DNA from: SAR86 cluster bacterium
GTDB lineage: Bacteria > Pseudomonadota > Gammaproteobacteria > Magnimaribacterales > D2472
NCBI GenBank assembly: GCA_016779505.1
Contig: JADHNM010000003.1
Span: 1-40,886 of the forward strand
Direction of reading: 5' to 3'
DNA: 40,886 nucleotides
Positions 24,119 to 40,802 of the stretch are shown one piece after another. The translations under genes and the position numbers were made by a program. The number at the start of each line of letters is the position of its first letter. The first letter of the stretch is position 1. The notes under the pieces are model-generated. The model saw only the letters and a list, made by a program, of their open reading frames with translations, did no database searches and had not been told where the DNA came from.

Positions 24119-25021
24119 ATGAAAATACAATCTTTAAGTTACCTGCTAATCGAAACAACAGATCTTCAGGAATGGGCTGATTATGCAAAAGATGTCGTTG
24201 GTTTAATGAAAAATGATTCTCTCAGCGATGAGTATAATCTTTATCTTCGTATGGATGAAAAATCTTTCAGATTTCATGTGATGACTGGTGATTCAAAACG
24301 ATATCTTGCTGCCGGTTTATCTTTATCAGACAAATCTGCATTTGAAGATGCAAAAAATGAATTGGAGAAAGCAAACATTCCTTTTGAATATTTAGGTGAT
24401 GAGATAGCAAAATTAAGGTGTGTTGAGGAGTGTATTGGATTAAATGATCCTGCAGGCAACAGACTAGAGCTATCTTATGGGAGCAAGAATTCCTCTGAGC
24501 CTTTTGTCTCAACTCAGAACATCAAAGGGTTTATTACTAAAGGACTTGGTTTTGGCCATGTGGTTTTTGCTGCGCCTGATTTAGAGACTACGCACAGGTT
24601 TTACATAGATGTTTTGGGTTTTGGAGATTCTGATTATATGAATTTTCCAATGGGACCAGCTCCAGATGCACCCGAAGTTAAATTAAACTTTATGCATTGT
24701 GACAACCCAAGACATCACACGGTTGCCTTGTATGAATCCCCAATTCCACCGTCAGGACTTATACATACCATGGTAGAGGTAAACGACATTGATGAAGTTG
24801 GTTATGGGCTTGATAGAGCCATACAAAATAATATTCATATCTCTTCTTCCCTAGGCAGGCACTCTAATGACATGATGGTTTCATTTTATATGCAGACACC
24901 ATCAGGTTTTGATTTGGAATTTGGTTACGATGGATGGCAGGTAGATTGGGATAACTTTGAGACTCAAAAGAGCAAGATTCCAAGTTTTTGGGGTCATACT
25001 TTCTCACCACCAGAAAATTAG
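24119..25021 (+). CDS. hsaC: Type I extradiol dioxygenase, HsaC/BphC-like (meta-cleavage of catecholic steroid)
   Basis: Two VOC domains; C-terminal metal-ligand positions GHVVFAAPD (H), GLIHTMVEV (H), FDLEFGYDG (E). First gene of a cluster that also encodes the downstream hydrolase and HPD pathway. Confidence 0.82.
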   Translation: MKIQSLSYLLIETTDLQEWADYAKDVVGLMKNDSLSDEYNLYLRMDEKSFRFHVMTGDSKRYLAAGLSLSDKSAFEDAKNELEKANIPFEYLGDEIAKLRCVEECIGLNDPAGNRLELSYGSKNSSEPFVSTQNIKGFITKGLGFGHVVFAAPDLETTHRFYIDVLGFGDSDYMNFPMGPAPDAPEVKLNFMHCDNPRHHTVALYESPIPPSGLIHTMVEVNDIDEVGYGLDRAIQNNIHISSSLGRHSNDMMVSFYMQTPSGFDLEFGYDGWQVDWDNFETQKSKIPSFWGHTFSPPEN

Positions 25022-25023
25022 CA

Positions 25024-25893
25024 ATGAACAAAATAGTTACTTACAAAGACATAATCGATCAGATGTCCGATGGAATGACTATCGGGGTTGGGGGTTGGGG
25101 TGCCCGTAGAAAACCTATGTCTTTAATAAGAGAGATTTGCAAATCAGATTTAAAGGATTTAACTGTTGTTAGTTATGGGGGCCCTGATGTTGGGTTATTG
25201 TGTGCTCATAAAAAAGTTAAAAAATTAATTTTTGGCTTTGTTTCATTGGATATGATCCCACTGGAAGCACACTTTCGCCAAGCTCGTCAAAAAAATGAAA
25301 TTGAAGTTATGGAGCTTGATGAGGGAATGGTGCAATGGGGTCTTCGAGCTGCTGCGATGCATTTACCGTTTTTACCTACTAGGGTGGGCTTGGGAACAGA
25401 TGTTTTAACGCATAATCCAGAATTAAAATTTGTTAGTTCACCATACCCTGATGCTGAAAAACTTGTTGCGATGCCTGCTCTGAATCTTGATGTTGCCTTA
25501 CTTCATGTAAATAAATCAGATGAAAAGGGCAATACTCAGATCGTTGGACCCGATCCATTTTTTGATGAACTCTTTGCAAGAGCTGCTAGTAAAACTTTTG
25601 TTTCAACAGAAGAGGTTGTAACAACAGAAGAGTTAGGAGGTAAAGATGGAGCAATGTTCAATAGGTTTGAAAGAAGCCTAGTTACTGGGGTATTACATTC
25701 ACCCTATGGAGCTCATCCAACTTCGTGCGCACCTAATTATGGTTTTGATATGCAGCATTTAAAAGAGTATTCAGATGCAGCAAAATCTTTTGATGAATAC
25801 AGTTCTAAATATCTTAATAAGACACATGAAGACTATATCGACTCTGTTGGGGGGTCCGAAGTAATTCAAAAAATACCTTTACCGCAATTTTAA
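25024..25893 (+). CDS. ipdA: CoA-transferase family ring-opening hydrolase subunit A (IpdA-like)
   Basis: TIGVGGWGARRKPMSLIREICKSDLKDLTVVSYGGPDVGLLCAHKKVKKLIFGFVSLD, MDEGMVQ-like, HLPFLPTRVGLGTDVL; close to recalled IpdA. Start at internal ATG 25024. Confidence 0.88.
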   Translation: MNKIVTYKDIIDQMSDGMTIGVGGWGARRKPMSLIREICKSDLKDLTVVSYGGPDVGLLCAHKKVKKLIFGFVSLDMIPLEAHFRQARQKNEIEVMELDEGMVQWGLRAAAMHLPFLPTRVGLGTDVLTHNPELKFVSSPYPDAEKLVAMPALNLDVALLHVNKSDEKGNTQIVGPDPFFDELFARAASKTFVSTEEVVTTEELGGKDGAMFNRFERSLVTGVLHSPYGAHPTSCAPNYGFDMQHLKEYSDAAKSFDEYSSKYLNKTHEDYIDSVGGSEVIQKIPLPQF

Positions 25894-25894
25894 C

Positions 25895-26650
25895 ATGTCA
25901 GACTCACCTTCATTAGCAGAAATTTGTATTAGCGCATCTTCAAAGGCATGGCATGGAGATGGAGAAATTCTTGCTACGGGCATTGGTTTAATTCCAAGGA
26001 TAGCAGCAGGATTGGCAAAGTTAACACATAACCCAGATTTGATGATGACTGATGGTGAAACCTATCTTATTTCTAGGCCGGTCCCTATGGGTAAAAGGGA
26101 TGTTTCCAATGATCAGGTTGAAGGATACATGAGCTACAGTCGTGTATTTGAGAATTTATGGGGAGGTAAGAGACACGCCATGGTTACCCCAACGCAAATA
26201 GACTCTTTTGGGCAAACTAATATAAGCGCCATTGGTGATTACAATTCTCCAAAAGTTCAACTTCTTGGTGTAAGAGGTTTTCCAGGAAACTTTATTAATC
26301 ATAAAAACTCTATTTTTATACCCAATCATTCTGTAAAGACCTTTGTCGAAGGAGAGGTAGATATGGTTTCAGGAATGGGTTTTAAGAATAAAGATTTGTC
26401 AAACGGAAAGTTTGAAATCAAGCTCGTAGTTACAAACCTTGGTGTGTTTGATTTCAGTGGAGAGAACAATAATCTTCAATTACTGAGCCTGCATCCAGGT
26501 GTTAATGTTGATGATGTAGTTACAAATACTGGCTTTGATGTACTCATTAAATCAGATGAAATTACCTCAATGCCCTCTAATGAAGAACTAACTTTAATAA
26601 GAGAAGTTCTTGACCCTCAAGGCTTTCGCAATTCAATTTTTGGAGAATAA
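25895..26650 (+). CDS. ipdB: CoA-transferase family ring-opening hydrolase subunit B (IpdB-like)
   Basis: Immediately follows ipdA; GIGLIPRIAAGLAKLTHNPDLMMTDGETYLI, LLGVRGFPGN. Confidence 0.87.
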   Translation: MSDSPSLAEICISASSKAWHGDGEILATGIGLIPRIAAGLAKLTHNPDLMMTDGETYLISRPVPMGKRDVSNDQVEGYMSYSRVFENLWGGKRHAMVTPTQIDSFGQTNISAIGDYNSPKVQLLGVRGFPGNFINHKNSIFIPNHSVKTFVEGEVDMVSGMGFKNKDLSNGKFEIKLVVTNLGVFDFSGENNNLQLLSLHPGVNVDDVVTNTGFDVLIKSDEITSMPSNEELTLIREVLDPQGFRNSIFGE

Positions 26651-26654
26651 AAAC

Positions 26655-27575
26655 ATGCCTAGAAGTAAACCTACAATTACCTATAAAAAGAAAGATCAAA
26701 TTGCAATCATTTCTATGAATAGGCCTGAATACAATAATGCTCAAAATGGCAAGATGACTTATGACCTAGACAAGGCTTTTAAAAGAGCGATTGATGATGA
26801 TGAGATTAAGGTTATTGTATTAAAAGGCAATGGCAAGCATTTTTCAGCAGGCCATGACATTGGAACACCTGGAAGAGATGTTGATGTTGAATATGATCGA
26901 AAATCAATGTGGTATGACCATACAAACAAACCTGGCGGCGAGTTTTGGTATGTGAGAGAGCAAGAAGTTTACTTGAATATGTGTAGACGCTGGAGAGATA
27001 TGCCTAAACCAACAATTGCTATGGTGCATGGAGCTTGTGTTGCAGGTGGCTGCATGTTGGCTTGGGTATGCGATCTTATTATTGCTTCCGAGGATGCTTT
27101 TTTTGCTGATCCTGTTGTGCGCATGGGAATTCCAGGGGTGGAGTACTTTGCTCATCCATATGAGTTGAACCCCAGAATTGCAAAAGAATTTTTATTTTTA
27201 GGAGAGAGAATGTCCTCATCAAGAGCCTATGAAATGGGCATGGTTAATAAGGTTGTTCCAATTGAGAATCTTGAGTCAACCGTTATGGAGATGGCCAAAA
27301 AAATATCTGCAATGCCAAGACTAGGTTTAACTTTAACAAAACAGGCTATTAATCACGTAGAAGACCTTCAAGGCAAAAGGAATGGAATGGAAGCTGCATT
27401 TGCATGGCATCATTTTGCTCATGCTCATAATGACCTAACTACTGGGAATATTTTATCTGGATTTGATGCCAAAAAAATGGCTAAATCTCAGCGAACTGCA
27501 TCTAAAAAAACTTCTGCAAAAAAGCCTGCAACTAATGCAGCTAAAAAACCTGATTTAAAGAAGAAAAAAAAATAG
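26655..27575 (+). CDS. Enoyl-CoA hydratase/isomerase family protein with lysine-rich C-terminal tail
   Basis: Crotonase motifs GNGKHFSAGHDI, GACVAGGCMLAWVCDLIIASEDAFFADP. Tail KSQRTASKKTSAKKPATNAAKKPDLKKKKK. Confidence 0.88.
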   Translation: MPRSKPTITYKKKDQIAIISMNRPEYNNAQNGKMTYDLDKAFKRAIDDDEIKVIVLKGNGKHFSAGHDIGTPGRDVDVEYDRKSMWYDHTNKPGGEFWYVREQEVYLNMCRRWRDMPKPTIAMVHGACVAGGCMLAWVCDLIIASEDAFFADPVVRMGIPGVEYFAHPYELNPRIAKEFLFLGERMSSSRAYEMGMVNKVVPIENLESTVMEMAKKISAMPRLGLTLTKQAINHVEDLQGKRNGMEAAFAWHHFAHAHNDLTTGNILSGFDAKKMAKSQRTASKKTSAKKPATNAAKKPDLKKKKK

Positions 27576-27584
27576 AAGAGACAC

Positions 27585-28643
27585 ATTATCAATAAATTAA
27601 CTGACATTTTGGGTTGCGATTACCCCATTATTCAAACTGCAATGGGTTGGGTTGCTTTGCCTGAGCTCGTGGCTGCTACTTCAAATGCGGGCGCTTTTGG
27701 TTTCTTAGCATTAGCAACCGCTGGACCAAAAGAGGCAATTGAAATGATGGATCAAACTTTGAGCCTGACTGATAAACCGTTTGGCGTAAATTTTCATATG
27801 TTCCAACCTGGAGCTGATGAGATTGTCCAAGCTATCTTAGATAGAAAGATTAAAGCTGTAAGCTATTCAAGATCCCCAACACCAGATTACATTAAAGCTT
27901 TCAAGCAACAAGGAATTGTATGCATACCTACAGTGGGCGCGCTTAAACATGCGATTAAAGCTGAGCAGCTTGGTGCCGACGCATTAGTTATTCAAGGTTC
28001 AGAAGGAGGGGGACACACAGGATCAACGCCAACAACCCTGTTGCTTAGTTCTGTCCTTGAGAATGTAGAAATTCCAGTAGTTGCTGCAGGCGGATTTCGA
28101 GATGGATCTGGTCTAGCTGCTTCTCTTGCATGGGGTGCATGCGGTATTGCAATGGGAACTCGCTTTATGATGACTGAAGAAAGTCCTGTTCCCAGTAAAA
28201 CTAAAGAGGCCTATCTATCAGCGCAAGTAGAAGAAATTAAAATAACCAAAAAATTTGATGGTTTGTCTCATCGTTTAATTTTCAACAAGTACATACAAAA
28301 AATAGATCGCTCAAATCCCATATCTTTATTCATCATGTCGGTGTCTTCAGCATGGAAATACAAACAAATTACCAAGGCTTCTTTTAGCGATCTTTTTAAA
28401 TCTTTTGTTGCGATGCTCAAGGGAGATGATTTAACTATCTCGCAATCAATTATGTCCGCTAACAGCCCTGCAATTATTCAAAAAGCAATGGTAGAGGGTT
28501 CACCTCATGAAGGCGCCATGCCATCAGGTCAAGTTGCTGGAATTATATCCAATCTTCCTTCATGCCAAGATTTAATTGATCAAATCATGGATGAGTTTGG
28601 AGTTGCAGCGGATAATTTTAAAAAGATTCAGGATAAATTATGA
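27585..28643 (+). CDS. ipdC: Nitronate monooxygenase-like flavoprotein, IpdC-like; probable non-canonical start (ATT 27585 or ATC 27588) or TTG 27609
   Basis: YPIIQTAMGWVALPELVAATSNAGAFGFLA, VIQGSEGGGHTG, PVVAAGGFRDGSGLAASLAWGACGIAMGTRFMMT, SGQVAGIISNLPSC. The track ORF starts at TTG 27609, but the conserved N-terminal LTDILG lies upstream in frame. Confidence 0.85.
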   Translation: MINKLTDILGCDYPIIQTAMGWVALPELVAATSNAGAFGFLALATAGPKEAIEMMDQTLSLTDKPFGVNFHMFQPGADEIVQAILDRKIKAVSYSRSPTPDYIKAFKQQGIVCIPTVGALKHAIKAEQLGADALVIQGSEGGGHTGSTPTTLLLSSVLENVEIPVVAAGGFRDGSGLAASLAWGACGIAMGTRFMMTEESPVPSKTKEAYLSAQVEEIKITKKFDGLSHRLIFNKYIQKIDRSNPISLFIMSVSSAWKYKQITKASFSDLFKSFVAMLKGDDLTISQSIMSANSPAIIQKAMVEGSPHEGAMPSGQVAGIISNLPSCQDLIDQIMDEFGVAADNFKKIQDKL

Positions 28644-29401
28644 GTGTTGAAACTTCTATTAATGAGGGTGTTGCTGAAATTATTTTAGATTGCCCTCCTG
28701 TAAATGCTTTAACCTCAACAGAATGGCTAGATTTAGCAATAAATATTGATCATCTTGCTCACAATAATGAAGTAAGGGTTATCGTAATATCTGCTAAAGG
28801 AAAAGGTTTTTGTGCTGGCGCTGATATCAAAGAACTGCAAGAGGACCCCACTAAAATTACAGATGTTAATGATGGTTGCTGGAAAACCGCGAGAGCAATT
28901 CATGTTTCAAATGTTCCTGTAATTTCAGCTTGTCATGGATTCATACTCGGTGGTGGTATTTTACTAGCAGGCGCTTCTGATATTGTTCTAGCGACAGAGG
29001 ATTCTTATTTTGGCTTGCCTGAAATTGATAGAGGCGCTCTAGGTGGAGGCGCTCATTTAAGCCGTCTTTTTCCCTTGCAGGCAGTTCGAAAAATGATGTT
29101 TACTGGCAAACCTATTTCTGCCCAACGAGCGTATGAATATGGTTCCATTGAGTCGCTGCATCCAGATTTAGATTCTGTCCGTGAAGCTTCATTAGTTATT
29201 GCTCATGACATAGCTTCTAAGAGCCCTATAGCGATGAACTTAGCTAAAAAAGCCTTGAATGAAATTGAGAATGGTAATGTTGATGAAAATTACAAGTCTG
29301 AGCAAACGTTTACTTTAGAGCTTTATAAATCTAAAGATTCTCAAGAAGCTCGAGATGCATTCGTAGAAAAAAGAGATGCAGATTTTAAAGATGAAGATTA
29401 A
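28640..29401 (+). CDS. echA20: EchA20-like crotonase (ring D opening)
   Basis: CPPVNALTS, GFCAGADIKELQ, GFILGGGILLAGASD, FGLPEIDRGALGGGAHLSRLFP, SEQTFTLELY...RDAFV; strong resemblance to recalled mycobacterial EchA20. 4-nt overlap with the preceding gene. Confidence 0.87.
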   Translation: MSVETSINEGVAEIILDCPPVNALTSTEWLDLAINIDHLAHNNEVRVIVISAKGKGFCAGADIKELQEDPTKITDVNDGCWKTARAIHVSNVPVISACHGFILGGGILLAGASDIVLATEDSYFGLPEIDRGALGGGAHLSRLFPLQAVRKMMFTGKPISAQRAYEYGSIESLHPDLDSVREASLVIAHDIASKSPIAMNLAKKALNEIENGNVDENYKSEQTFTLELYKSKDSQEARDAFVEKRDADFKDED

Positions 29402-30542
29402 GTTCACTAAAGAAGAGAATACTTTTAGGAGAGAAGTGCGATCTTGGTTGGAGAGCCATGTTCCAAAAAAACCACTTTTATCATTAGATACAAAAGAGGG
29501 CTTTGAACAACACAGAGAGTGGGAGAGAACCCTGAATCAAGGAAATTGGGCAATGGTTACTTGGCCAAAAGAGTACGGAGGCAGAGGTTTGGATTTAATC
29601 CAATGGTTAATCTTTGAGGAGGAGTATTATCGAGCTGAAGCTCCCACAAGGGTGAATCAAAATGGAGTTTTTTTACTTGGTCCAACCTTGATGGAATTTG
29701 GAACCCATGAGCAGAAATCTAAATTTTTAAATGCCATGGCTACCGGTGATCATATATGGGCTCAAGGCTGGTCTGAGCCAGGCGCAGGAAGTGATATGGC
29801 CGCTATTAGAACAACTGCAGTGTTAGAAGGCGATCATTATAAAATTAATGGGCAAAAAACTTGGTCCTCAAGGGCAACATATGCTGATTGGACCTTTGGA
29901 TTGTTCAGAACGGATTTAGAGTCCGAAAGACACAGAGGATTATCTTTTATTTTAGTTCCATTAGATCTTCCTGGCATTACTGTCAGGCCTATTCCTCAGC
30001 TGGATGGTGAACCAGGCTTTGCTGAAATATATTTTGATGATGTAGAAGTTCCTGTAGAAAATCTTCTTGGCGGTGACGGGGACGGCTGGAAAATTGCAAT
30101 GGCAACTGCAGGTTTTGAAAGAGGTCTAATGTTAAGAAGCCCTGCTCGTTTTCAACAAACAGCTGCAAAATTAATGGAGCTTTATCTTGCCAAACAAGAT
30201 CATTGTTCCCCAATGATCCAAGCTAAGATTGTTGAAGCATGGGCTCAATCAGAATCATATGCTTTAAGCATTTACCATACGGCATCAAAAATGCTTGCTG
30301 GAGGCTCTATTGGCTCAGAATCAAGTTTAGGTAAGATTTTTTGGTCTGAGCTTGATCATATGATGCACCAAACAGCATTGAAAATCTTAGGAGCCAGCGC
30401 AGAACTTTCTCAAGAATCACAAGATGATGCAGCAAAATGGATCAAAGGCTTTATGTTTTCTTATGCTGGGCCAATCTATGCAGGCACAAATGAAATTCAA
30501 AAAAATATTATTGCAGAGAGGTTATTAGGGCTGCCCAAATAA
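29391..30542 (+). CDS. Acyl-CoA dehydrogenase, FadE/IpdE-type subunit
   Basis: VTWPKEYGGRGLD, GWSEPGAGSDMAAIRTTA, INGQKTWSS, YAGTNEIQKNIIAERLLGLP. Start at ATG 29391 overlapping the echA20 end. Confidence 0.9.
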   Translation: MKIKFTKEENTFRREVRSWLESHVPKKPLLSLDTKEGFEQHREWERTLNQGNWAMVTWPKEYGGRGLDLIQWLIFEEEYYRAEAPTRVNQNGVFLLGPTLMEFGTHEQKSKFLNAMATGDHIWAQGWSEPGAGSDMAAIRTTAVLEGDHYKINGQKTWSSRATYADWTFGLFRTDLESERHRGLSFILVPLDLPGITVRPIPQLDGEPGFAEIYFDDVEVPVENLLGGDGDGWKIAMATAGFERGLMLRSPARFQQTAAKLMELYLAKQDHCSPMIQAKIVEAWAQSESYALSIYHTASKMLAGGSIGSESSLGKIFWSELDHMMHQTALKILGASAELSQESQDDAAKWIKGFMFSYAGPIYAGTNEIQKNIIAERLLGLPK

Positions 30543-30545
30543 AAG

Positions 30546-31583
30546 ATGAACTTTATTTTTACTGAAGAACAAATGCAATTTAAGGATGCTATCAAGTCTT
30601 TTTTGATAGATGAATGCTCTCCGAAATCCATTAGAGAGGGCTGGGATACAAAAAAATCTTTCAATCCAGACAGATGGAAAGGTTTATTTGAGCTAGGTGT
30701 TTTAAATTCTAATCTTCCGGAAGATAAAGGTGGTTTAGGCATGGACCAAGTGACGCTAGCATTGATGGTTGAAGAGATGGGTTACGCTGGTCTGCCTGAG
30801 CCAGTGGCTGAACAAACTTTTTTAGTAAATGATTTGATTTCGCTTCTGCCCAAAGATATAGGTAAAGCCATTGAAGAGACTTATGATGCTGGAGCAAAAT
30901 ATATATCACTCGCTCACCCATTGGCTCCCAATCCGTTATTTATTGCTGATTCAGCTGGACTTATTTTATTTGATGATTCCCAGTGTAAGTTCATAGCTAA
31001 AGAGGATTTGAATTTTGAAATCATTGCATCCAATGATCCATCAAGGGAGATTTATAAGATAAATTCAACCAATAATGTAATTTCTTCGGCTGAAAATTTT
31101 GAAGAATTGAATTCTGCGGTTTCTGCAAGAGGAGCATTAATGACAGCAGCTTTGTTAATTGGATTGGCTCAAAAAATGATAGATTTAAGCTCAGCCTATG
31201 TCTTAGATAGAACTCAATTTGGCAAGCCAATTGGATCCTTTCAGGCTGTTAAGCATATGTTGGCTGATGTGGCAGTTAAAATTGAGTTTGCAAAACCTGC
31301 TGTTTACAGAGCAGCTTATTCTTTGTCTGAAAATAATCCGAAATCTGCTTTACATTGTGCTCACGCAAAACTTATGTGTGCTCAAGCTGCTGAACTCGCA
31401 TGTAAAAATAGTATTCAGGCTCATGGAGCAATGGGCTATACCTGGGAGATGGATCTTCATATATACATGAGAAAAGCCTGGTCGATGATGGCTTGTTGGG
31501 GCAATGAGGACAGGCAACAAGATATAATTTTTAAGACACTGTCTTCCACTAGTGAAGAGCTTGGTGTTTTATATACTTTTTAG
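30546..31583 (+). CDS. Acyl-CoA dehydrogenase, second FadE/IpdE-type subunit
   Basis: FTEEQMQFKDAIKSFL, DRTQFGKPIGSFQAVKHMLADVAVKIE, HGAMGYTWEMDLHIYMRKAW. Confidence 0.88.
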   Translation: MNFIFTEEQMQFKDAIKSFLIDECSPKSIREGWDTKKSFNPDRWKGLFELGVLNSNLPEDKGGLGMDQVTLALMVEEMGYAGLPEPVAEQTFLVNDLISLLPKDIGKAIEETYDAGAKYISLAHPLAPNPLFIADSAGLILFDDSQCKFIAKEDLNFEIIASNDPSREIYKINSTNNVISSAENFEELNSAVSARGALMTAALLIGLAQKMIDLSSAYVLDRTQFGKPIGSFQAVKHMLADVAVKIEFAKPAVYRAAYSLSENNPKSALHCAHAKLMCAQAAELACKNSIQAHGAMGYTWEMDLHIYMRKAWSMMACWGNEDRQQDIIFKTLSSTSEELGVLYTF

Positions 31584-31595
31584 GGGGACATAGGT

Positions 31596-32750
31596 ATGCG
31601 AGATGCATTCATAGTTAGCGCGTTGAGAACACCAATAGGAAAAAAGAAAGGCACTTTATCAAATATGCACCCTGCTGATTTAGGGGCTGTAGTTCTTTCT
31701 GCAACCTTTGATCAAGTAGATTTAGACTCAGGGTTAGTTGAGGATGTAATTTTTGGTTGCGTTGATACAGTTGGACCTCAAGCTGGTGACATAGCAAGGA
31801 CCTGTTGGTTGGCTGCAGGTCTTCCTGAGCATGTTCCAGGGACAACCGTTGACCGTCAATGTGGCTCATCTCAGCAAGCCGTTCATTTTGCCGCTCAAGC
31901 TATTATGTCAGGTACTTCTGATGTAGTTATTGCTGGAGGCGTTCAAAACATGAATATGATTCCTATATCTTATGCCATGATTGCTGGACAAGCGCTAGGT
32001 TTTGCAGATCCATTCTCTGGATCAAAAGGCTGGGTTAATCGCTATGGTAATAAAGAAGTAAGTCAGTTTAATTCAGCACAGATGATTGCAGAAAAATGGA
32101 ATATATCCAGATTAGAGATGGAAAACTATGCATACCAAAGCCATCAAAAAGCCATGAGCGCTATTGAAAAAGGCTTGTTTAAAGATGAAATTGTTTCAGT
32201 TCAAGATTTTGATACTGATGAGACTCCAAGAGCGGAAACTTCATTGGAAAAAATGGCTTCCTTGAATCCATTGATTGAGGGCCATGATATTACAGCCGCT
32301 ATTTCTTCGCAAAATGCAGATGCATCTTCAGCTATTTTGATTGTTTCAGAAAAAATTCTTAAAGAGCATAACCTTACCCCCTTAGCAAGAATAGCGCATA
32401 TAAGTGTTAGAGCCGATGACCCAATCTGGATGCTTACCGCGCCTATGCCTGCAACAGAATATGCAGTCAAAAAGTCAGGCATCCAATTACATGAAATTGG
32501 TTTGGTTGAGATAAATGAAGCGTTTGCATCTGTTGCTATGGCTTGGCAAAAAGAAATGGAGTACCCAATGGATCAAATTAATATAAGCGGGGGAGCAATT
32601 GCTCTTGGCCATCCACTCGGAGCAACCGGCGCCCGATTGATGACTACCATGGTTCATAATATGAAAAGAAATAATATTAAATATGGTTTGCAAACAATGT
32701 GTGAAGGCGGAGGCCAGGCAAACGTTACAATTTTAGAGAATTGCTCATGA
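31596..32750 (+). CDS. fadA6: Thiolase, FadA6-like
   Basis: TVDRQCGSSQQAVHFAAQAIMSGTSDVVIAGGVQNM, QFNSAQMIAEKWNISRLEME, INEAFASVAMAW, GGAIALGHPLGATGARLMTTM, YGLQTMCEGGGQANVTI. Confidence 0.9.
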   Translation: MRDAFIVSALRTPIGKKKGTLSNMHPADLGAVVLSATFDQVDLDSGLVEDVIFGCVDTVGPQAGDIARTCWLAAGLPEHVPGTTVDRQCGSSQQAVHFAAQAIMSGTSDVVIAGGVQNMNMIPISYAMIAGQALGFADPFSGSKGWVNRYGNKEVSQFNSAQMIAEKWNISRLEMENYAYQSHQKAMSAIEKGLFKDEIVSVQDFDTDETPRAETSLEKMASLNPLIEGHDITAAISSQNADASSAILIVSEKILKEHNLTPLARIAHISVRADDPIWMLTAPMPATEYAVKKSGIQLHEIGLVEINEAFASVAMAWQKEMEYPMDQINISGGAIALGHPLGATGARLMTTMVHNMKRNNIKYGLQTMCEGGGQANVTILENCS

Positions 32751-33529
32751 ACAATTTAATGAATCCAAAATATCCTGAGGGAAGAAATCTTTTTCAAGAT
32801 AAGAATATCTTAATAACTGCTGCTGCTGGGTCTGGAATTGGTTTTTCAACAGCTAAGCGATTTCTTGAGGAGGGAGCAAATATTTTTATTTCTGATGTTC
32901 ACCAGGGCAGATTAGATGAGGCAATAGAAAGTTTACGAAAATTGAAGATGGGTGAAGTTCAGGGTTGTCTTTGTAATGTCACGAGTGATGAAGAAATTGA
33001 AGCAATGTTCAAAGAGGCTATTGCTTGCTATTCATCTTTAAATGGAGTGATTAATAACGCTGGGCTTGGGGGAGAGTCCTTGTTAGAAAATATGACCAAC
33101 GATGCTTGGGATCTAGTAATGGACGTTACCCTTAATGGTGCGATGAAAATTATGAGAGCCGCCATTCCAGTGCTTAAAGACACACAAGGCGTAATTGTTA
33201 ACAATGCATCTGTATTAGGCTGGAGAGCGCAAGCAGGTCAATCTCACTATGCTGCCGCAAAGGCTGGAGTGATGGCTTTAACAAGGTGTGTTGCATTAGA
33301 AACCGTAGATCATGGAATTAGAATAAATGCAGTAGCTCCGAGCCTTGCAATGAATCCACATCTGTCCAAGACTAGCTCAAATGAATTGATTGCTGAATTA
33401 GAATCTAAAGAAGCTTTTGGAAGAGGGGCAGAGCCATGGGAGATTGCGAATATTATTTTATTTTTAGCATCAGATCTTTCTTCATATATGACTGGTGAGG
33501 TAATATCTGCATCATCTCAAAGGGCATAG
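32747..33529 (+). CDS. ipdF: SDR family oxidoreductase, IpdF-like
   Basis: ILITAAAGSGIGFSTAKRFLEEGANIFISDVHQGRL, NNAGLGGESLLENMTNDAWD, VIVNNASVLGWRAQAGQSHYAAAKAGVMALTRC, YMTGEVISASSQ. ATG 32747 overlaps the thiolase stop by 4 nt. Confidence 0.88.
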   Translation: MNNLMNPKYPEGRNLFQDKNILITAAAGSGIGFSTAKRFLEEGANIFISDVHQGRLDEAIESLRKLKMGEVQGCLCNVTSDEEIEAMFKEAIACYSSLNGVINNAGLGGESLLENMTNDAWDLVMDVTLNGAMKIMRAAIPVLKDTQGVIVNNASVLGWRAQAGQSHYAAAKAGVMALTRCVALETVDHGIRINAVAPSLAMNPHLSKTSSNELIAELESKEAFGRGAEPWEIANIILFLASDLSSYMTGEVISASSQRA

Positions 33530-34222
33530 ATGGAAAAGCTAGCCTATCAACTTTGGAAAAAAGATGATGATAGTCTAGAAACTTTTAAAGAATTACTTCT
33601 AAAAAACCTCAGTAAAGATATAGGAAAGTTAGTTTCAGAATTGCAAATCAATATTGCTGATGCTGATGTTTTGCCAGCAAATAATTTAGCGCAATCAAAC
33701 TATCCACCCGCGCCAAATGCAGTAATATTCATAAAAGTAAAAAGTTATTTTTTAGCAGATACACTCGAAAGTCATTTAGAAAAAATTACAAATAAAATTT
33801 ATGGCTTTGTTGTCAGTGAATCAATTATTTTAGATAACTTAAAAAAGAGTCCTTTGGGCTCAAGATCAGAAGGGTTTTCACAAGTTGTTTTTTTAGAGAA
33901 GCCAGAATCAATGTCTACATATGACTGGTTTAATCACTGGACCAATCACCACACAAACATCGCCATTCAAACCCAATCTAATTTTATTTATGTTCAAAAT
34001 ACAGTTGTTAGACCTTTGCAGAAAGCATCTCCTTCATTTATTGCAATTGTCGAGGAGTGCTTTCCATCTGAGGCCATGACAGATCCAGAGGTTTTTTATG
34101 ATGCCAAAAATAATCCAGAGCAATTGGCAAAACATGCTCAGATTATGATGGATAGTTGCGAGAAATTTATAGACTTTAATAAAATTGAGGTAATTCCTAC
34201 AAGTAGGTATAGAATAATTTAA
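33530..34222 (+). CDS. EthD-domain-like protein of unknown function
   Basis: KSPLGSRSEGFSQVVFLEKPESMSTYDWFNHWTNHHTNIAIQTQSNFIYVQNTVVRPL...CFPSEAMTDPEVFYDA. Resembles EthD-type dimeric alpha/beta barrel proteins. Start codon abuts the ipdF stop. Confidence 0.6.
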   Translation: MEKLAYQLWKKDDDSLETFKELLLKNLSKDIGKLVSELQINIADADVLPANNLAQSNYPPAPNAVIFIKVKSYFLADTLESHLEKITNKIYGFVVSESIILDNLKKSPLGSRSEGFSQVVFLEKPESMSTYDWFNHWTNHHTNIAIQTQSNFIYVQNTVVRPLQKASPSFIAIVEECFPSEAMTDPEVFYDAKNNPEQLAKHAQIMMDSCEKFIDFNKIEVIPTSRYRII

Positions 34223-34257
34223 GCGTATAAAGAAATTAAGAGAGAGGAGAAGACAAT

Positions 34258-35031
34258 ATGAATGATTTAAAAGTTGCATTGGTTACAGGAGCTGCAAGTG
34301 GGATGGGCAGAATTTCCTCTAAAAAGCTAGCTGCTGAAGGTGTGCATGTTGCAGCTGTAGATGTAAATGAAGAAGGATTAAATGAGCTCAAACAAGAATC
34401 AAATAACATTTCTATTTTTCCATGTGATTTATCGGATTCAAATGCCGTCAAGACTATGGTTCAGCAGGTTCAATCAGAGGTAGGTTCAATTGATAGAGTT
34501 ACCCAAGCAGGCGCAGTAATGCCAATGGCAAGAATTCAAGATTTAGACGCATCTTCAATAAATAATTTAATGAGAATTAATTATGAGGGTACTGTAAACA
34601 TTGTGAGTAATGTTTTGCCATCAATGCTTGAAAAAAATAATGGGCAAATAATACTTTTTGGTTCCATTGCAGGAATGTGCCCTCTCGAAAAAATGTCCGC
34701 TTATTGTGCTTCTAAAGCAGCCGTAAATATTTTTGGCGAAATCTTGGCTAAAGAGGTTAAAGATACAAATATTAGAGTTATGGTAGTTTGTCCAGCTCAA
34801 ACCGATACTCCTTTGATGAGATTTGTTGATGAGACTGATGCGCCTGATGCAATTAATACTGCAGTGAAAAAAGGAATGCTTTGCGATCCAGAGGAAGTGG
34901 TTAATCAAATCGAAAAAGACTTACTGACTGATAAAATTATTTGTTATCCTTCAAAAGAAGCTGTATATGCCACCAGGATAAGAAGATTTTTCCCAAATTA
35001 TTGGTGGAAATTAGTTCAAAAAAACTCATAA
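34258..35031 (+). CDS. Short-chain dehydrogenase/reductase with atypical NNAG motif
   Basis: ALVTGAASGMG, TQAGAV in place of NNAG, GSIAGM..MSAYCASKAA. GAGAGGAGAAG ribosome-binding region upstream. Confidence 0.85.
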   Translation: MNDLKVALVTGAASGMGRISSKKLAAEGVHVAAVDVNEEGLNELKQESNNISIFPCDLSDSNAVKTMVQQVQSEVGSIDRVTQAGAVMPMARIQDLDASSINNLMRINYEGTVNIVSNVLPSMLEKNNGQIILFGSIAGMCPLEKMSAYCASKAAVNIFGEILAKEVKDTNIRVMVVCPAQTDTPLMRFVDETDAPDAINTAVKKGMLCDPEEVVNQIEKDLLTDKIICYPSKEAVYATRIRRFFPNYWWKLVQKNS

Positions 35032-35042
35032 TAAAATAGACC

Positions 35043-36392
35043 ATGGAATATATTAATAAATTACCTCCTGATAATAGAGATCTTTCTATGTTCCCGGGGC
35101 AATATGGCTGGCCTTTTCTTGGCAAGACAGTCGAGCTAGTTAAAGATACCTTGGCAATGTGCAACAAGCACTATGATAGATATGGTCCTGTTTCTAGGTT
35201 AGACATGGTTCGTAATCAAAGAGTTTTAATGTGTCTAGGTCCAGAATTTAATGAGGCAGCTTTATTTGATCCCAATGGTAATTTTAGTGTTGCTGGTGGT
35301 TATGCAAGTTCGCTAGGCACCTTATACCCTGAGGGTATGTTGCTTAGGGATGACAAAAAACATAAAAAAACAAGAAGGGCATCCCAACCAGCTTTCAAGA
35401 CTGATGCACTTAAATCCTATGTGGATATGTTAATTCCTATTCAAGAGCGTCGCATTCAGGCGCTTCCCGTTGAAGAGGAGTTTGTATTCTATGACAATAT
35501 TCAAGAAACATTAATGGATGTCGCTGCAAGAGTGTTCATAGGCTTAGATGAAAAAAGTCCAGAAGCACAAAGATTGAGTTACCTTTTTTCAACAATTAAT
35601 GAGGGCCTGGTAACTCCCTTGCCCTATGATCTGCCATTTTTAAAATTTAGAAAATCTATGCAGGCTCGCGAAGAGCTTAGAGAATTTTTTATTTCAAATA
35701 TTCCTAAAAGAAGGGGCTCTGATGCTCAAGATATGTTTACAAGATATTGCAATGCTCAAGATGAGGATGGTGAGTATCTAGAAGATGTCGATATTGATGG
35801 GCATATGGCATTTTTATTATTTGCAGCATTTGATACCACAACAAGTGCACTGACAAATATCCTTTATTACCTAGGTAAAAATCCTCAATGGCAGGAAAAG
35901 GTTCGGAATGAAATTTTTAGTGTCAGCAATGAAATGCCTACATTTGAAGACATGGCGGAGATGACTATGACCGAATATGTTTTTCAAGAGACGTTGAGAT
36001 TCTATCCATCAGTTATGATTTTAAATAGGCGTACTACCAGAGATGTAAATGTTGCTGGATATGACATACCTGCAAATACTGTTGTTATGCTTAGCCCACC
36101 ATTTACTCACCGTATGGAAGAATGGTGGTCAAACCCTTTAGAGTTTGATCCTATGAGATTTTCTCCAGAAAGAGCCGAACATAAAAAACATGGTTTTAGT
36201 TATGTGCCATTTGGTGGCGGTGCGCATAAATGTATTGGTATGCATTTTGCAATGATGAATGCAAAACTTTATTTATTTAGATTGCTTAAAAATTATAAAG
36301 TGAATCTTAGATCTAATTACGATCCTGCATTCATGCATGTGCATCTGCCAAGGCCAATAGATGGCTTGCCATTAACTTTAACTAGGATTTAG
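35043..36392 (+). CDS. Cytochrome P450 (CYP120/CYP26/CYP51-clan-like)
   Basis: FPGQYGWPFLGKTVELVKD N-terminus, I-helix FAAFDTTTSAL, K-helix ETLR, heme loop FGGGAHKCIGMHFA. Confidence 0.93.
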   Translation: MEYINKLPPDNRDLSMFPGQYGWPFLGKTVELVKDTLAMCNKHYDRYGPVSRLDMVRNQRVLMCLGPEFNEAALFDPNGNFSVAGGYASSLGTLYPEGMLLRDDKKHKKTRRASQPAFKTDALKSYVDMLIPIQERRIQALPVEEEFVFYDNIQETLMDVAARVFIGLDEKSPEAQRLSYLFSTINEGLVTPLPYDLPFLKFRKSMQAREELREFFISNIPKRRGSDAQDMFTRYCNAQDEDGEYLEDVDIDGHMAFLLFAAFDTTTSALTNILYYLGKNPQWQEKVRNEIFSVSNEMPTFEDMAEMTMTEYVFQETLRFYPSVMILNRRTTRDVNVAGYDIPANTVVMLSPPFTHRMEEWWSNPLEFDPMRFSPERAEHKKHGFSYVPFGGGAHKCIGMHFAMMNAKLYLFRLLKNYKVNLRSNYDPAFMHVHLPRPIDGLPLTLTRI

Positions 36393-36396
36393 TTCG

Positions 36397-37206
36397 ATGA
36401 TTCCTCAAGGCTCCTATTTAGAAGTCGAGAATGACTTTAATTTTCATTATTATGACGAGGGAGATGGGGATGTTGTGGTTTTATTGCATGGCAGTGGAAC
36501 TGGTGCATCCGGGCATACAAATTTTAAAAATAATTTTATAGCTTTGAAAGAAGCAGGATATAGAGTAATTTTGCCTGACCTTCCTGGGTATGGTTTCTCA
36601 AGCAAGCCAGAGGATGAAACCTATTCACTGGAATATTTTAATACTAAAATACTCCAGCTCCTCGATGCACTAAAAGTTGAATCATTCTCGTTAATTGGAA
36701 ATAGTTTAGGTGGGGCACTGGCCTTAGGTCTTGCTTTGAGTCATCCCAAAAGAGTAGAGAAATTAATTCTTATGGCTCCTGGCGGTGTTGAAGACCAAGA
36801 TACTTATAACAAAATGCCAGGCATACAGAAACTTCTTGCTGATTTCTTGGGTGGAGAGATGAATCAAGAAAAAATAGAGGGCTTGCTTTCGCTTTTTCCA
36901 TATGACTCTTCAATTATTTCTGATGAAATGGTGTCAGATAGAATGGAAATACTTCCATTGATGAATTCGCAAGTTTTAGCTTCAATGACGATACCAAATA
37001 TGGAAAAAGATCTTTTTAAGATTCAACATCCTATTCTTGCTTTTTGGGGCATCAATGATCAGTTTATTCCCGTATCAGGCTCGATGAAGATTGGTGAAAA
37101 ATGTCCAAATGCTCAGATCATGCTTTTTAGCCAATGTGGACATTGGGTTATGATTGAGAAAGAGCAAATTTTTAATGAGGCCTGCATTAATTTCTTATCA
37201 GCTTAA
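36397..37206 (+). CDS. hsaD: Meta-cleavage product hydrolase, HsaD/TesD/BphD-like
   Basis: LLHGSGTGASGHTNF, nucleophile GNSLGGALALGLAL, acid GINDQFIP, histidine CGHWVMIEK. Confidence 0.85.
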   Translation: MIPQGSYLEVENDFNFHYYDEGDGDVVVLLHGSGTGASGHTNFKNNFIALKEAGYRVILPDLPGYGFSSKPEDETYSLEYFNTKILQLLDALKVESFSLIGNSLGGALALGLALSHPKRVEKLILMAPGGVEDQDTYNKMPGIQKLLADFLGGEMNQEKIEGLLSLFPYDSSIISDEMVSDRMEILPLMNSQVLASMTIPNMEKDLFKIQHPILAFWGINDQFIPVSGSMKIGEKCPNAQIMLFSQCGHWVMIEKEQIFNEACINFLSA

Positions 37207-37208
37207 AT

Positions 37209-37994
37209 ATGAATTTAAACACTATAAATGATATAGCTTCAGAGCTGTTTTTGGCTTTAAAAAACCAAGAAACAGTTCAGCCACTTTCTGACAAATATGA
37301 TGAGATAGATATTAATGATGCTTATCAAATTTCTCGAAAGTTTCTTTCCTTAAGAGAAGACCAAGGTGAAAAGGTTATTGGAAAGAAAATCGGTGTTACA
37401 AGTCCAGTTGTTCAAGAAATGCTTGGGGTCAACCAACCAGATTTTGGTTTTTTAACAGACAATATGCAAGTTAAAAATAAATCGAATTTCTCAATAAAAA
37501 ATTCTTTGATTCAACCTAGAGCAGAAGCTGAAATTGCTTTTATTTTAAAAGAAGATATTTCAGGACCTGGAATTTCAAAGGAAGATGTCATTCTCGCAAC
37601 TGATAAAATTGTTCCATGTTTTGAAATTGTTGACTCAAGAATTGATGATTGGAAAATTAAAATTCAAGATACTATTGCTGATAATGCATCATGTGGAATT
37701 TTTGTTTTAGGAGAAGGATCATCTTCCCCTGAAAAGTTTCCAATGGATGAGTTGGAGGTAATTGTTCATAAGAATGGAGAATTTTTGTCATCAGGCTTTG
37801 GTTCTGCGGTTCAAGGTCATCCAGCAGAAGCAGTTGCGTGGCTTGCTAATACTTTGGGTGAATATGACATCCCATTACTCAAAGGTGAGTTTATTTTATC
37901 AGGATCTCTGGTTCCTCTAGAGCCAGCAATTGCTGGCGATAGTTTTTCATTAGAGCTCAAGGGTGTTGGAACCTGCGAAATTAATTTTATCTAA
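37209..37994 (+). CDS. hsaE: 2-hydroxypenta-2,4-dienoate hydratase, HsaE/TesE-like
   Basis: [71 protein letters not shown]. Confidence 0.88.
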
Positions 37995-37996
37995 TT

Positions 37997-38920
37997 ATGA
38001 GCAAAGTCAAATGTGCAATTATTGGATCTGGAAATATCGGCACAGATCTGATGTTAAAAATTATTAAAACCTCTCAATCATTATCTTTAAATGGAGTGAT
38101 TGGCATTGACCCTGAGTCTGAAGGTCTAGCAATGGCAAAATCTCATAATATTGCGATTTCATCAACCGGCTTGCAGGGCTTTATGGAAATGGATGAGTAT
38201 CGAGATACTGAAATATTTTTTGATGCAACTTCTGCTGGTGCCCATAAAAATCATCATGATTTAATTATTAATGATGGCAAGCAGATGATAGACCTTACCC
38301 CAGCAGCAATAGGCCCATATTGCGTCCCAGTTGTTAATTTAACGGAACATTTAAAAGAAAAGAATGTAAACATGGTGACCTGCGGAGGCCAAGCTACCAT
38401 CCCAATGGTTGCAGCGGTTAATCAAGTTTCTAGCGTTAAATATGCTGAGATAGTTGCATCTGTTTCTTCAAAGTCTGCTGGACCAGGAACAAGGGCGAAC
38501 ATTGATGAATTTACTCAAACAACTAAGCTAGGGCTTGAAAAAGTTGGAGGGGCAGACAGAGCTAAAGCAATCATAGTGCTTAATCCTGCTGAGCCCCCTT
38601 TATTAATGAGAAATACTGTTTTTACTTTATGTGATCCTGTTGATCAAGAGTTAGTTAAAGATAGCATTGAGGCAATGGTAGACCGTGTTCAGTCTTATGT
38701 ACCTGGCTATAGATTAAAGCAAGAAGTTCAATTTGAAAGATTTGGCTCTAATAATCCATGCCTTATTCCTGGCTATGGTGAGTTTGAGGGACTAAAAGCA
38801 TCGATTTTCTTAGAAGTGGAGGGTGCTGGACACTATTTGCCTACTTATGCAGGGAATCTAGATATTATGACCTCTGCTGCTATGGGAACCGCACAGGAAT
38901 TAATTAAACTTAACTCATGA
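37997..38920 (+). CDS. hsaG: Acetaldehyde/propionaldehyde dehydrogenase (acylating), HsaG/TesF-like
   Basis: [53 protein letters not shown]. Confidence 0.92.
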
Positions 38921-39933
38921 GTAAGCTTTATATACAAGATGTCACGTTGAGAGATGGTATGCACGCAATAAGACATCAATATGGTTTAGATCATGTAATT
39001 GAGATTGCAAAGGCATTAGATGAAGCTAAAGTTGATGCCATTGAGGTCGCTCATGGAGATGGTTTGTCTGGGTCTTCTTTTAATTATGGTTTTGGAGCTC
39101 ATACAGATAAAGAATGGATTGGAGCAGTTGCTGAGAAATTAAATTATGCAAAACTTACAACTCTTATTTTGCCTGGAATTGCAATTAAAGAAGATCTTAA
39201 GTGGGCATGGGATCTTGGGGTTAGATCGGTCAGAGTTGCAACTCACTGCACCGAGGCAGATGTTTCAAAGCAGCACATAGAGTTTGCAAGAGAATTAGGT
39301 ATGGATACCATTGGTTTTTTGATGATGTCACATATGACCTCACCATCCAACTTAGCAGAACAGGCCAAATTGATGGAGTCCTATGGAGCTGAATGTGTAT
39401 ATGTTGTTGATTCGGGCGGCGCATTGAGCATGGAAGATGTAGCAGATAGATTTAAAGCTTTTAAAGATACCTTGGATTCTTCAACCCAAACAGGCATGCA
39501 TGCGCATCATAATTTATCTTTAGGAGTTGCTAATTCAATTGTTGCTGTTGAAAATGGAGCAAATCGAGTTGATGCAAGTCTTGCGGGTATGGGGGCTGGA
39601 GCAGGAAATGCCCCTCTTGAAGTTTTTATTGCTGCAATTGATAGATTGGGGTGGGAACATGGAACAGATCTCTTTAAATTAATGGATGCTGCTGAAGAGC
39701 TGGTTCGCCCATTGCAGGATAGGCCCGTAAGAGTCGATAGAGAAACATTAACATTGGGTTATGCTGGCGTTTACTCATCCTTCCTCAGGCATGCTGAATC
39801 AGCTGCTGAAACTTATGATCTTGATACAAGAGAAATTCTTGTTGAGCTAGGAAAGAGAAAGATGGTTGGCGGTCAAGAAGATATGATTGTCGATGTAGCC
39901 TTGGATTTATTAAAAAAGAAATCTCAATCATGA
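38917..39933 (+). CDS. hsaF: 4-hydroxy-2-oxovalerate aldolase, HsaF/TesG-like
   Basis: [33 protein letters not shown]-like, [35 protein letters not shown]. 4-nt overlap with hsaG. Confidence 0.93.
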
Positions 39934-40802
39934 AAATTGGCATGACCCTTCCGGTCATGGAGCCTGATTTATCCAGGCAAGACTTAGAGGATTGGACGTT
40001 GAGAATAGATGCTGGTCCATGGTCGCATATTGCCTTGGGAGAAAGAATTTTATTTCCCAACCCTGAATTCATCTCTACTTTAAGTGCAGTCGCTGCCTGG
40101 ACCAAGCGTGTGGAGATCATTGCAACCATATCTGTTTTGACAATGCATAACCCAATATTGAGCGCTAAACAGTTTGCAACAATTGATATGATCTCAGAGG
40201 GTAGGTTTACCCTTGGTGTAGGGGTTGGGGGTAGAGAAGAAGACTATAATGCTATTGGCTCCACATGGTCTGATAGAAGGTGGGCTACACTTTCTGATCG
40301 TGTTAAAACCATGCAATCAGTTTGGTCAAAGGAATATCATCCTAGTTTAGGGCCAACACCCTTTTCTATGAATGGACCTCAAATATTGGCAGGCGCAGTA
40401 GGTCCTAAGGCCATGGAAATGTCGGCTGATTTTGCAGATGGCTTGGCTGGATTTTCATTTAATGCAGATATTGAAGAAATCAAAGATTCATTTAATCGAG
40501 TGCAAAAAGCATTTGAAGAAAAAAATAAATCTCCTAGGTTGGTCACCAGTTTCTGGTTTGGGCTAGGTAAATCTGCTCGATCAGACATTCAAACCCACCT
40601 TGAAAGGTATTTAAGTTGGATGGGAGATGATCTTGCAAGAGATTTAGCAAAAACAGCAGGTTTTTCAGGTAGTCAAAGTGATTTGAACGATTTTCTCTTA
40701 TTGGTCAAGGCTGCTGGCGCAACAGATGTAATTTTGGTGCCTACATCAAAAAACATTGAACAATTAATCTTGGCAGAAGAGGTGATTGCTGGATTTGGCT
40801 AA
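39930..40802 (+). CDS. LLM-class (luciferase-like) flavin-dependent oxidoreductase
   Basis: [12 protein letters not shown]..., [46 protein letters not shown]. 4-nt overlap with hsaF. Confidence 0.83.

Follow-up and report, generated by a model that had tools for sequence, protein, structure and literature searches.

A cytochrome P450 encoded within an 18-gene steroid-type operon of a SAR86 bacterium has, together with the EthD-domain protein and the short-chain dehydrogenase (SDR2) encoded upstream of it (33530-36392), an evolutionary history different from that of the other operon genes, and in one clade the P450 gene has undergone a replacement whose breakpoints coincide with the ends of the gene. 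This pattern of gene exchange is well supported, and no description of it was found in the literature searched. The P450 itself fits none of the families tested and probably carries out a real but undescribed step of marine sterol breakdown. As a tentative overall reading, to which we give somewhat less than even weight, a P450 of an uncharacterised family and SDR2 would together perform a nuclear oxidation in SAR86 steroid catabolism.

The P450 and its operon

The stretch of DNA analysed (40,886 nucleotides, the window) is the whole of contig C3 in the source assembly, G000. The earlier note had placed a 449-residue P450 at 35043-36392, and this is confirmed by an open reading frame that is intact from ATG to stop at exactly these coordinates, by a match to the Pfam model p450 (PF00067, E 1.1e-69; score 235.8 bits, cut-off 22.8) and by the presence of the strings FPGQYGWPFLGKTVELVKD, FAAFDTTTSAL and FGGGAHKCIGMHFA. 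Besides the PF00067 match, the protein has the other marks of the cytochrome P450 superfamily, the ExxR motif (E316-R319) and the FxxGxxxCxG heme loop (FGGGxHKCIG, with Cys397), and its I helix carries D264-T265. Since E316, R319, C397, D264 and T265 are invariant across 43 homologues, the P450 should be catalytically competent and is predicted to be a working heme-thiolate monooxygenase. Its AlphaFold2 model reaches a pLDDT of 89.7 and a pTM of 0.90, and no other P450 was found in the source assembly, which is 75% complete (947,742 bases). Directly ahead of the I-helix acid, residue 263 (window 35829-35831) is Phe in all operon P450s of SAR86 family f1 and His in nearly all relatives; the I-helix sequence is accordingly AAFDTTTS for the operon clade, as against AAHDTTTS for almost every relative.

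The operon runs from 24119 to 40802 with all genes on the + strand and little or no spacing between them:

24119-25021, +, HsaC/BphC-like extradiol dioxygenase (BphC model 280 bits, HsaC model 258 bits, both under the cut-off)
24988-25893, +, IpdA-like CoA-transferase-fold subunit (PF01144), used as the marker of steroid ring C/D degradation
25895-26650, +, IpdB-like CoA-transferase-fold subunit (PF01144)
26610-27575, +, enoyl-CoA hydratase family protein (PRK08290, 446 bits, above the cut-off)
27609-28643, +, IpdC-like NMO-family flavoprotein (PF03060; named IpdC from position and established pathway knowledge)
28640-29401, +, EchA20-like enoyl-CoA hydratase (PRK07938, 308 bits, above the cut-off; putatively EchA20)
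29376-30542, +, acyl-CoA dehydrogenase, IpdE1-like by position
30546-31583, +, acyl-CoA dehydrogenase (best model IpdE2, NF050027, 120 bits, cut-off 450)
31596-32750, +, FadA6-like thiolase (PRK07801, 641 bits, above the cut-off)
32741-33529, +, IpdF-like SDR (PRK07831, 384 bits, above the cut-off)
33530-34222, +, EthD-domain protein (PF07110), third gene of the exchangeable block
34258-35031, +, SDR2, short-chain dehydrogenase (PF00106) directly upstream of the P450, a conserved neighbour
35043-36392, +, cytochrome P450, 449 aa, CYP120/CYP51/CYP204-like without a family fit (ORF, PF00067, identities, motifs, AF2, Foldseek)
36397-37206, +, HsaD/BphD-like meta-cleavage-product hydrolase (HsaD model 183 bits, under the cut-off of 400)
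37209-37994, +, HsaE/DmpE-like 2-hydroxydienoate hydratase (TIGR03220, 350 bits, cut-off 408.8)
37997-38920, +, HsaG-like acetaldehyde (propanal) dehydrogenase (TIGR03215, 442 bits, above the cut-off)
38917-39933, +, HsaF-like 4-hydroxy-2-oxovalerate aldolase (TIGR03217, 586 bits, above the cut-off)
39930-40802, +, luciferase-like (LLM) oxidoreductase (PF00296)

Since the HsaC and HsaD scores lie under the curated cut-offs, these two names denote type only, not proven orthologues. Collinear genes of the HsaC, HsaD, HsaE-G, IpdA/B, IpdC, IpdF, FadA6 and EchA20 types identify the cluster as a 9,10-seco steroid (hsa/ipd) operon, in which the P450 is flanked by SDR2 and the HsaD-like hydrolase. 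The order HsaC-IpdA-IpdB-ECH-IpdC-ECH-FadE-FadE-FadA6-IpdF-EthD-SDR2-P450-HsaD-HsaE-HsaG-HsaF-LLM is common to about 30 SAR86 loci from at least three genera. Thus the conserved synteny with ipd/hsa genes on which the earlier interpretation depended is indeed found in relatives, with the P450 in the same operon position throughout. Beyond the point at which this contig ends, relatives encode a Rieske protein, a KshA-type protein, two Lrp-type regulators and an acyl-CoA ligase, and the KshA family is present in the source assembly as well as in relatives. The KshA behind the operon is split in five SAR86 genomes of two genera (L040 6380-7678; L033 3121-4426; L034 5505-6772; L041 2527-3821; L145 11158-12456) into a Rieske-only protein of 134-149 aa and a KshA_C protein of 281-290 aa, the latter lacking the Rieske ligands.

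That the window encodes neither ferredoxin nor reductase, as had been noted, holds for the [2Fe-2S] ferredoxin and FNR-type reductase families, Fer2 (PF00111) and NAD_binding_1 (PF00175), neither of which has a match on this contig. With these two families, a dedicated redox partner for the P450 was also sought elsewhere, and the candidates were rejected: the small [2Fe-2S] ferredoxin of G000, G009 and G010 follows iscS-iscU-iscA-type genes and thus falls in an isc operon, and the PF00175 matches are an NqrF-like protein and a fragment. The main PF00175 protein of G000, G009, G010, G022 and G032 is NqrF-like by size (413 aa) and domains, one further match in G022 is a 66-aa fragment, and PF00175 revealed no KshB-type reductase in these five genomes despite their Rieske oxygenases and P450s.

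Family placement and distribution of the P450

In searches of the PDB sequences with the P450, CYP204A3 (9wat), CYP120A1 and Methylococcus capsulatus CYP51 rank at the top, while CYP125, CYP142 and CYP124 are absent from the best 60 sequences by both phmmer and profile, and no CYP26 occurs among the best 60 matches. CYP204A3 scores highest (154 bits for the single query and 204 for the profile), yet is only 27.8% identical over the aligned part. CYP120A1 (2ve3), the retinoic acid hydroxylase of Synechocystis, is the second-best sequence match and the nearest fold by Foldseek (TM 0.85-0.87), but it is 27.0% identical and not known from a steroid operon. M. capsulatus CYP51 (6mi0, 6mcw), a member of a family whose substrate class is sterols, belongs to the same sequence neighbourhood and ranks second by fold; however, it is 25.7% identical, its I-helix His is an Asp in the operon P450 and it carries a fused ferredoxin that the operon P450 lacks. 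The CYP125 and CYP142 steroid C26-monooxygenases share with the operon P450 a location within a steroid-degradation cluster, but the operon P450 is only 21.0% identical to CYP125MRCA, an ancestral reconstruction, and falls in a separate clade. In the literature searched we found nothing on the function of CYP204, nor on function for Zhongshania or BD1-7.

In a quick tree whose long reference branches leave the branching order of the references unsure, long and fully supported branches part the operon P450 from a CYP125 pair, and the SAR86 operon P450s form a group (99% SH-aLRT) with relatives of 52-54% identity, one of which belongs to another SAR86 family. Next outward come proteins of Spongiibacteraceae, Halieaceae and other gammaproteobacteria with 37-45% identity. 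The claim that the P450 is not CYP125-like is therefore borne out by the PDB sequence ranking, the Foldseek ranking and the tree. Its description as CYP120/CYP51-like stands as a neighbourhood in sequence, fold and tree but fails as a family assignment, given identities of 21-28% and the missing CYP51 I-helix signature: the P450 stays below the 40% identity rule for CYP51, CYP120, CYP204 and CYP125 alike. An identity as CYP51 in particular is ruled out by the low identity and by Asp-Thr (AAFDTTTS) in place of the His-Thr of CYP51 (AGHHTSSG). Judged from these comparisons, the P450 lies outside every family tested. The earlier interpretation is supported in part; the attack on an unusual sterol or terpenoid that it proposed for the P450 is conjectural.

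The host's kin are named SAR86 cluster bacteria, the closest being SAR86E (P450 identity 99%). Among 60 SAR86 genomes, orthologues of the P450 (52-100% identity) occur only where IpdA and/or KshA is present. Among the genomes at least 90% complete, G009, G032 and G036 have the P450, and the same three have IpdA and KshA. IpdA without the P450 was seen in G007, G017 and G020, all incomplete, and at least two of these loci look cut by contig ends. Beyond close kin, all 10 tested genomes holding a P450 relative of 40-54% also hold IpdA (55-60% identity), although these genomes are related and the count is not one of independent events; the eleventh genome of this search, G070, is the SAR86 positive control and stands outside it. 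A steroid link of such relatives is also favoured by the copies in the isolate SB11_3 and by the MAG M0112, both taken up below. In a class-wide draw of 320 genomes, IpdA was found in four and together with a P450 relative in one, while two (G212 and G324) hold 36% relatives without IpdA, indicating that the wider P450 clan is not steroid-only. Most Spongiibacteraceae relatives do not adjoin hsa/ipd genes, and clustering of their neighbours returned mainly TetR, LLM and housekeeping genes, with no recurrent steroid genes. Plasmid-borne relatives (32-34%) show no steroid cluster, and M. chubuense has a cluster of lipid type. The 54% relative at L073 adjoins an iron alcohol dehydrogenase, so that the pairing of P450 and dehydrogenase, represented in the operon by SDR2, recurs.

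Exchange of the EthD-SDR2-P450 block

For each operon gene of loci L043-L074, pairwise identities were set against the median over the other genes. The correlation is 0.85-0.98 for every gene except EthD (0.63), SDR2 (0.58) and the P450 (0.60). The replacement of the P450 is clearest where L049, L051, L054 and L056 are compared with L065 and L067: the operon median is about 97-99%, the P450 75-76%. Between L049 and L065, the flanks of the replaced gene are 97-100% identical, and at the start of the P450 the DNA of the two loci diverges, with about 98% identity ahead of it and about 70% within, before converging again past its stop. The L049-type P450 is 94% identical to that of L047 and L074, against 61-84% for most flanks and 87-88% for SDR2. 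Whereas the backbone tree unites the six loci at 100%, the P450 data reject this grouping (AU p 8e-10). Among the source's close kin (L058, L061, L069), too, the P450 is at 84% within a background of about 88-97%. Such a clean replacement means that the operon undergoes editing of individual genes in nature.

It is possible that the apparent replacement is a product of assembly chimerism. Indeed, the MAG TMED104 yields both P450 allele types (L056, L066), so mixing within MAGs does exist. However, both alleles are also backed by records of the AG- and AH- series (L051 and L054 versus L065 and L067), which we take from their names to be single-cell genomes, and these show the same breakpoints at the gene ends. 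We therefore regard chimerism as a very improbable source of the pattern. TMED104 contains two versions of the same operon, and the bin probably mixes strains.

A re-tuning of substrate specificity by the allele exchange was considered and rejected: of 98 fixed differences between alleles, 16 fall in the substrate-recognition segments, approximate as these are, versus about 20 expected. Since the differences are not concentrated there, they do not point to a change of substrate. In single lineages, HsaD also looks replaced in L045, L060 and L068 (71-79% versus about 75-97% for most flanks), as does HsaC at L032 6368-7264 (57% versus about 75-97%).

Possible roles in steroid catabolism

SAR86 bacteria are among the most abundant bacteria of the surface ocean, and to our knowledge such a P450 has no place in the standard seco pathway. 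Thus, either a further oxidation is required for marine sterols or a P450 clan not expected in this role opens their side chain. Steroid-ring degradation in SAR86, with the same hsa/ksh-type genes in the same organisms, has already been published (PMC4810484, PMC11582366), and the more recent report calls its occurrence in part of SAR86 surprising (PMC11582366, 2024). The term 'P450' does not occur in the main text of PMC11582366, where cyp125 homologues are mentioned only in another SAR86 family, and neither the operon P450 nor its exchange nor the split KshA appears in the searched text of the two papers, although their supplements may list the gene.

We infer a steroid substrate, SDR2 as the partner and a nuclear rather than a side-chain site. 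The P450 would add a hydroxyl group to the nucleus of a sterol-derived substrate or to a substituent of that nucleus, SDR2 would oxidise the resulting alcohol, and phytoplankton-type steroids would thereby gain access to the ring A/B (hsa) and ring C/D (ipd) steps that the flanking genes encode. That the P450 forms part of steroid catabolism in ring-degrading SAR86 and hydroxylates the nucleus or a substituent of it is, taken jointly, a possibility that we rate a little below even. A bolder version, in which a new P450 family, SDR2 and EthD form a module that can be exchanged and that supplies the SAR86 seco-steroid pathway with a nuclear oxidation not yet described, the P450 moving between lineages by precise single-gene replacement and the remainder of the operon keeping its place, must be considered unlikely, if worth entertaining.

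CYP125 and CYP142 sit within the actinobacterial steroid cluster, much as the P450 sits within the hsa/ipd cluster here, and it could stand in for them as a C26(27) sterol side-chain hydroxylase of another P450 clan that starts side-chain beta-oxidation. Among the proteobacterial steroid degraders that they surveyed, Bergstrand et al. reported no orthologues of CYP125 or CYP142. At least three P450 relatives are encoded by the BD1-7 isolate SB11_3, apparently, judging from the name, the same strain as SB113, which was isolated on cholesterol and grew on it (Holert et al., PMC5790920). In the MAG M0112, a 42% relative ends an ipd-like cluster on a contig that also carries IpdA, about 12 kb away, and lies beside a series of acyl-CoA dehydrogenase genes, an SDR gene and a thiolase gene, but these side-chain genes are weakly typed. 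Moreover, a second SAR86 P450, with CYP125MRCA as its best match (275 bits), lies apart from the operon in 46 of the 60 SAR86 genomes, among them members of families that have neither IpdA nor KshA, and is present in all but a few incomplete ring-degrading assemblies (39-100% identity to the copy in G002). Since this gene is widespread even where rings are not degraded, C26 hydroxylation need not fall to the operon P450, which alone tracks ring degradation; together, the two distributions favour a nuclear or nucleus-dependent step, an argument drawn mainly from the presence of another P450. A side-chain role is thus unlikely in our view, if only slightly more so than the module just described.

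Two further scenarios seem to us about equally improbable, and considerably more so than the side-chain role. Methylated sterols are found in phytoplankton, and with CYP51 among the nearest sequences and folds the P450 might oxidise the C-4 or C-14 methyl group of such sterols, a CYP51-like demethylation put to catabolic use; yet at 26% identity to the M. capsulatus enzyme and with D-T for His-Thr in the I helix it is no member of CYP51. The P450 might also act on a non-steroid lipid (a retinoid, a carotenoid fragment or another terpenoid) and lie in the operon incidentally, as the retinoic-acid-bound CYP120A1 is the nearest solved fold and some distant relatives occur without IpdA. However, its strict limitation to ring-degrading SAR86 and its fixed operon position argue against this.

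The SAR86 genome G002 carries further candidate catabolic genes: adjacent KstD-, KshA- and HsaA-like ORFs, recognised by eye, lie apart from its hsa/ipd operon (L148 554-4580), and a second catabolic cluster (L146 7502-8695 and 14393-15385) contains a different P450, a BphC-like dioxygenase, and acyl-CoA and thiolase genes.
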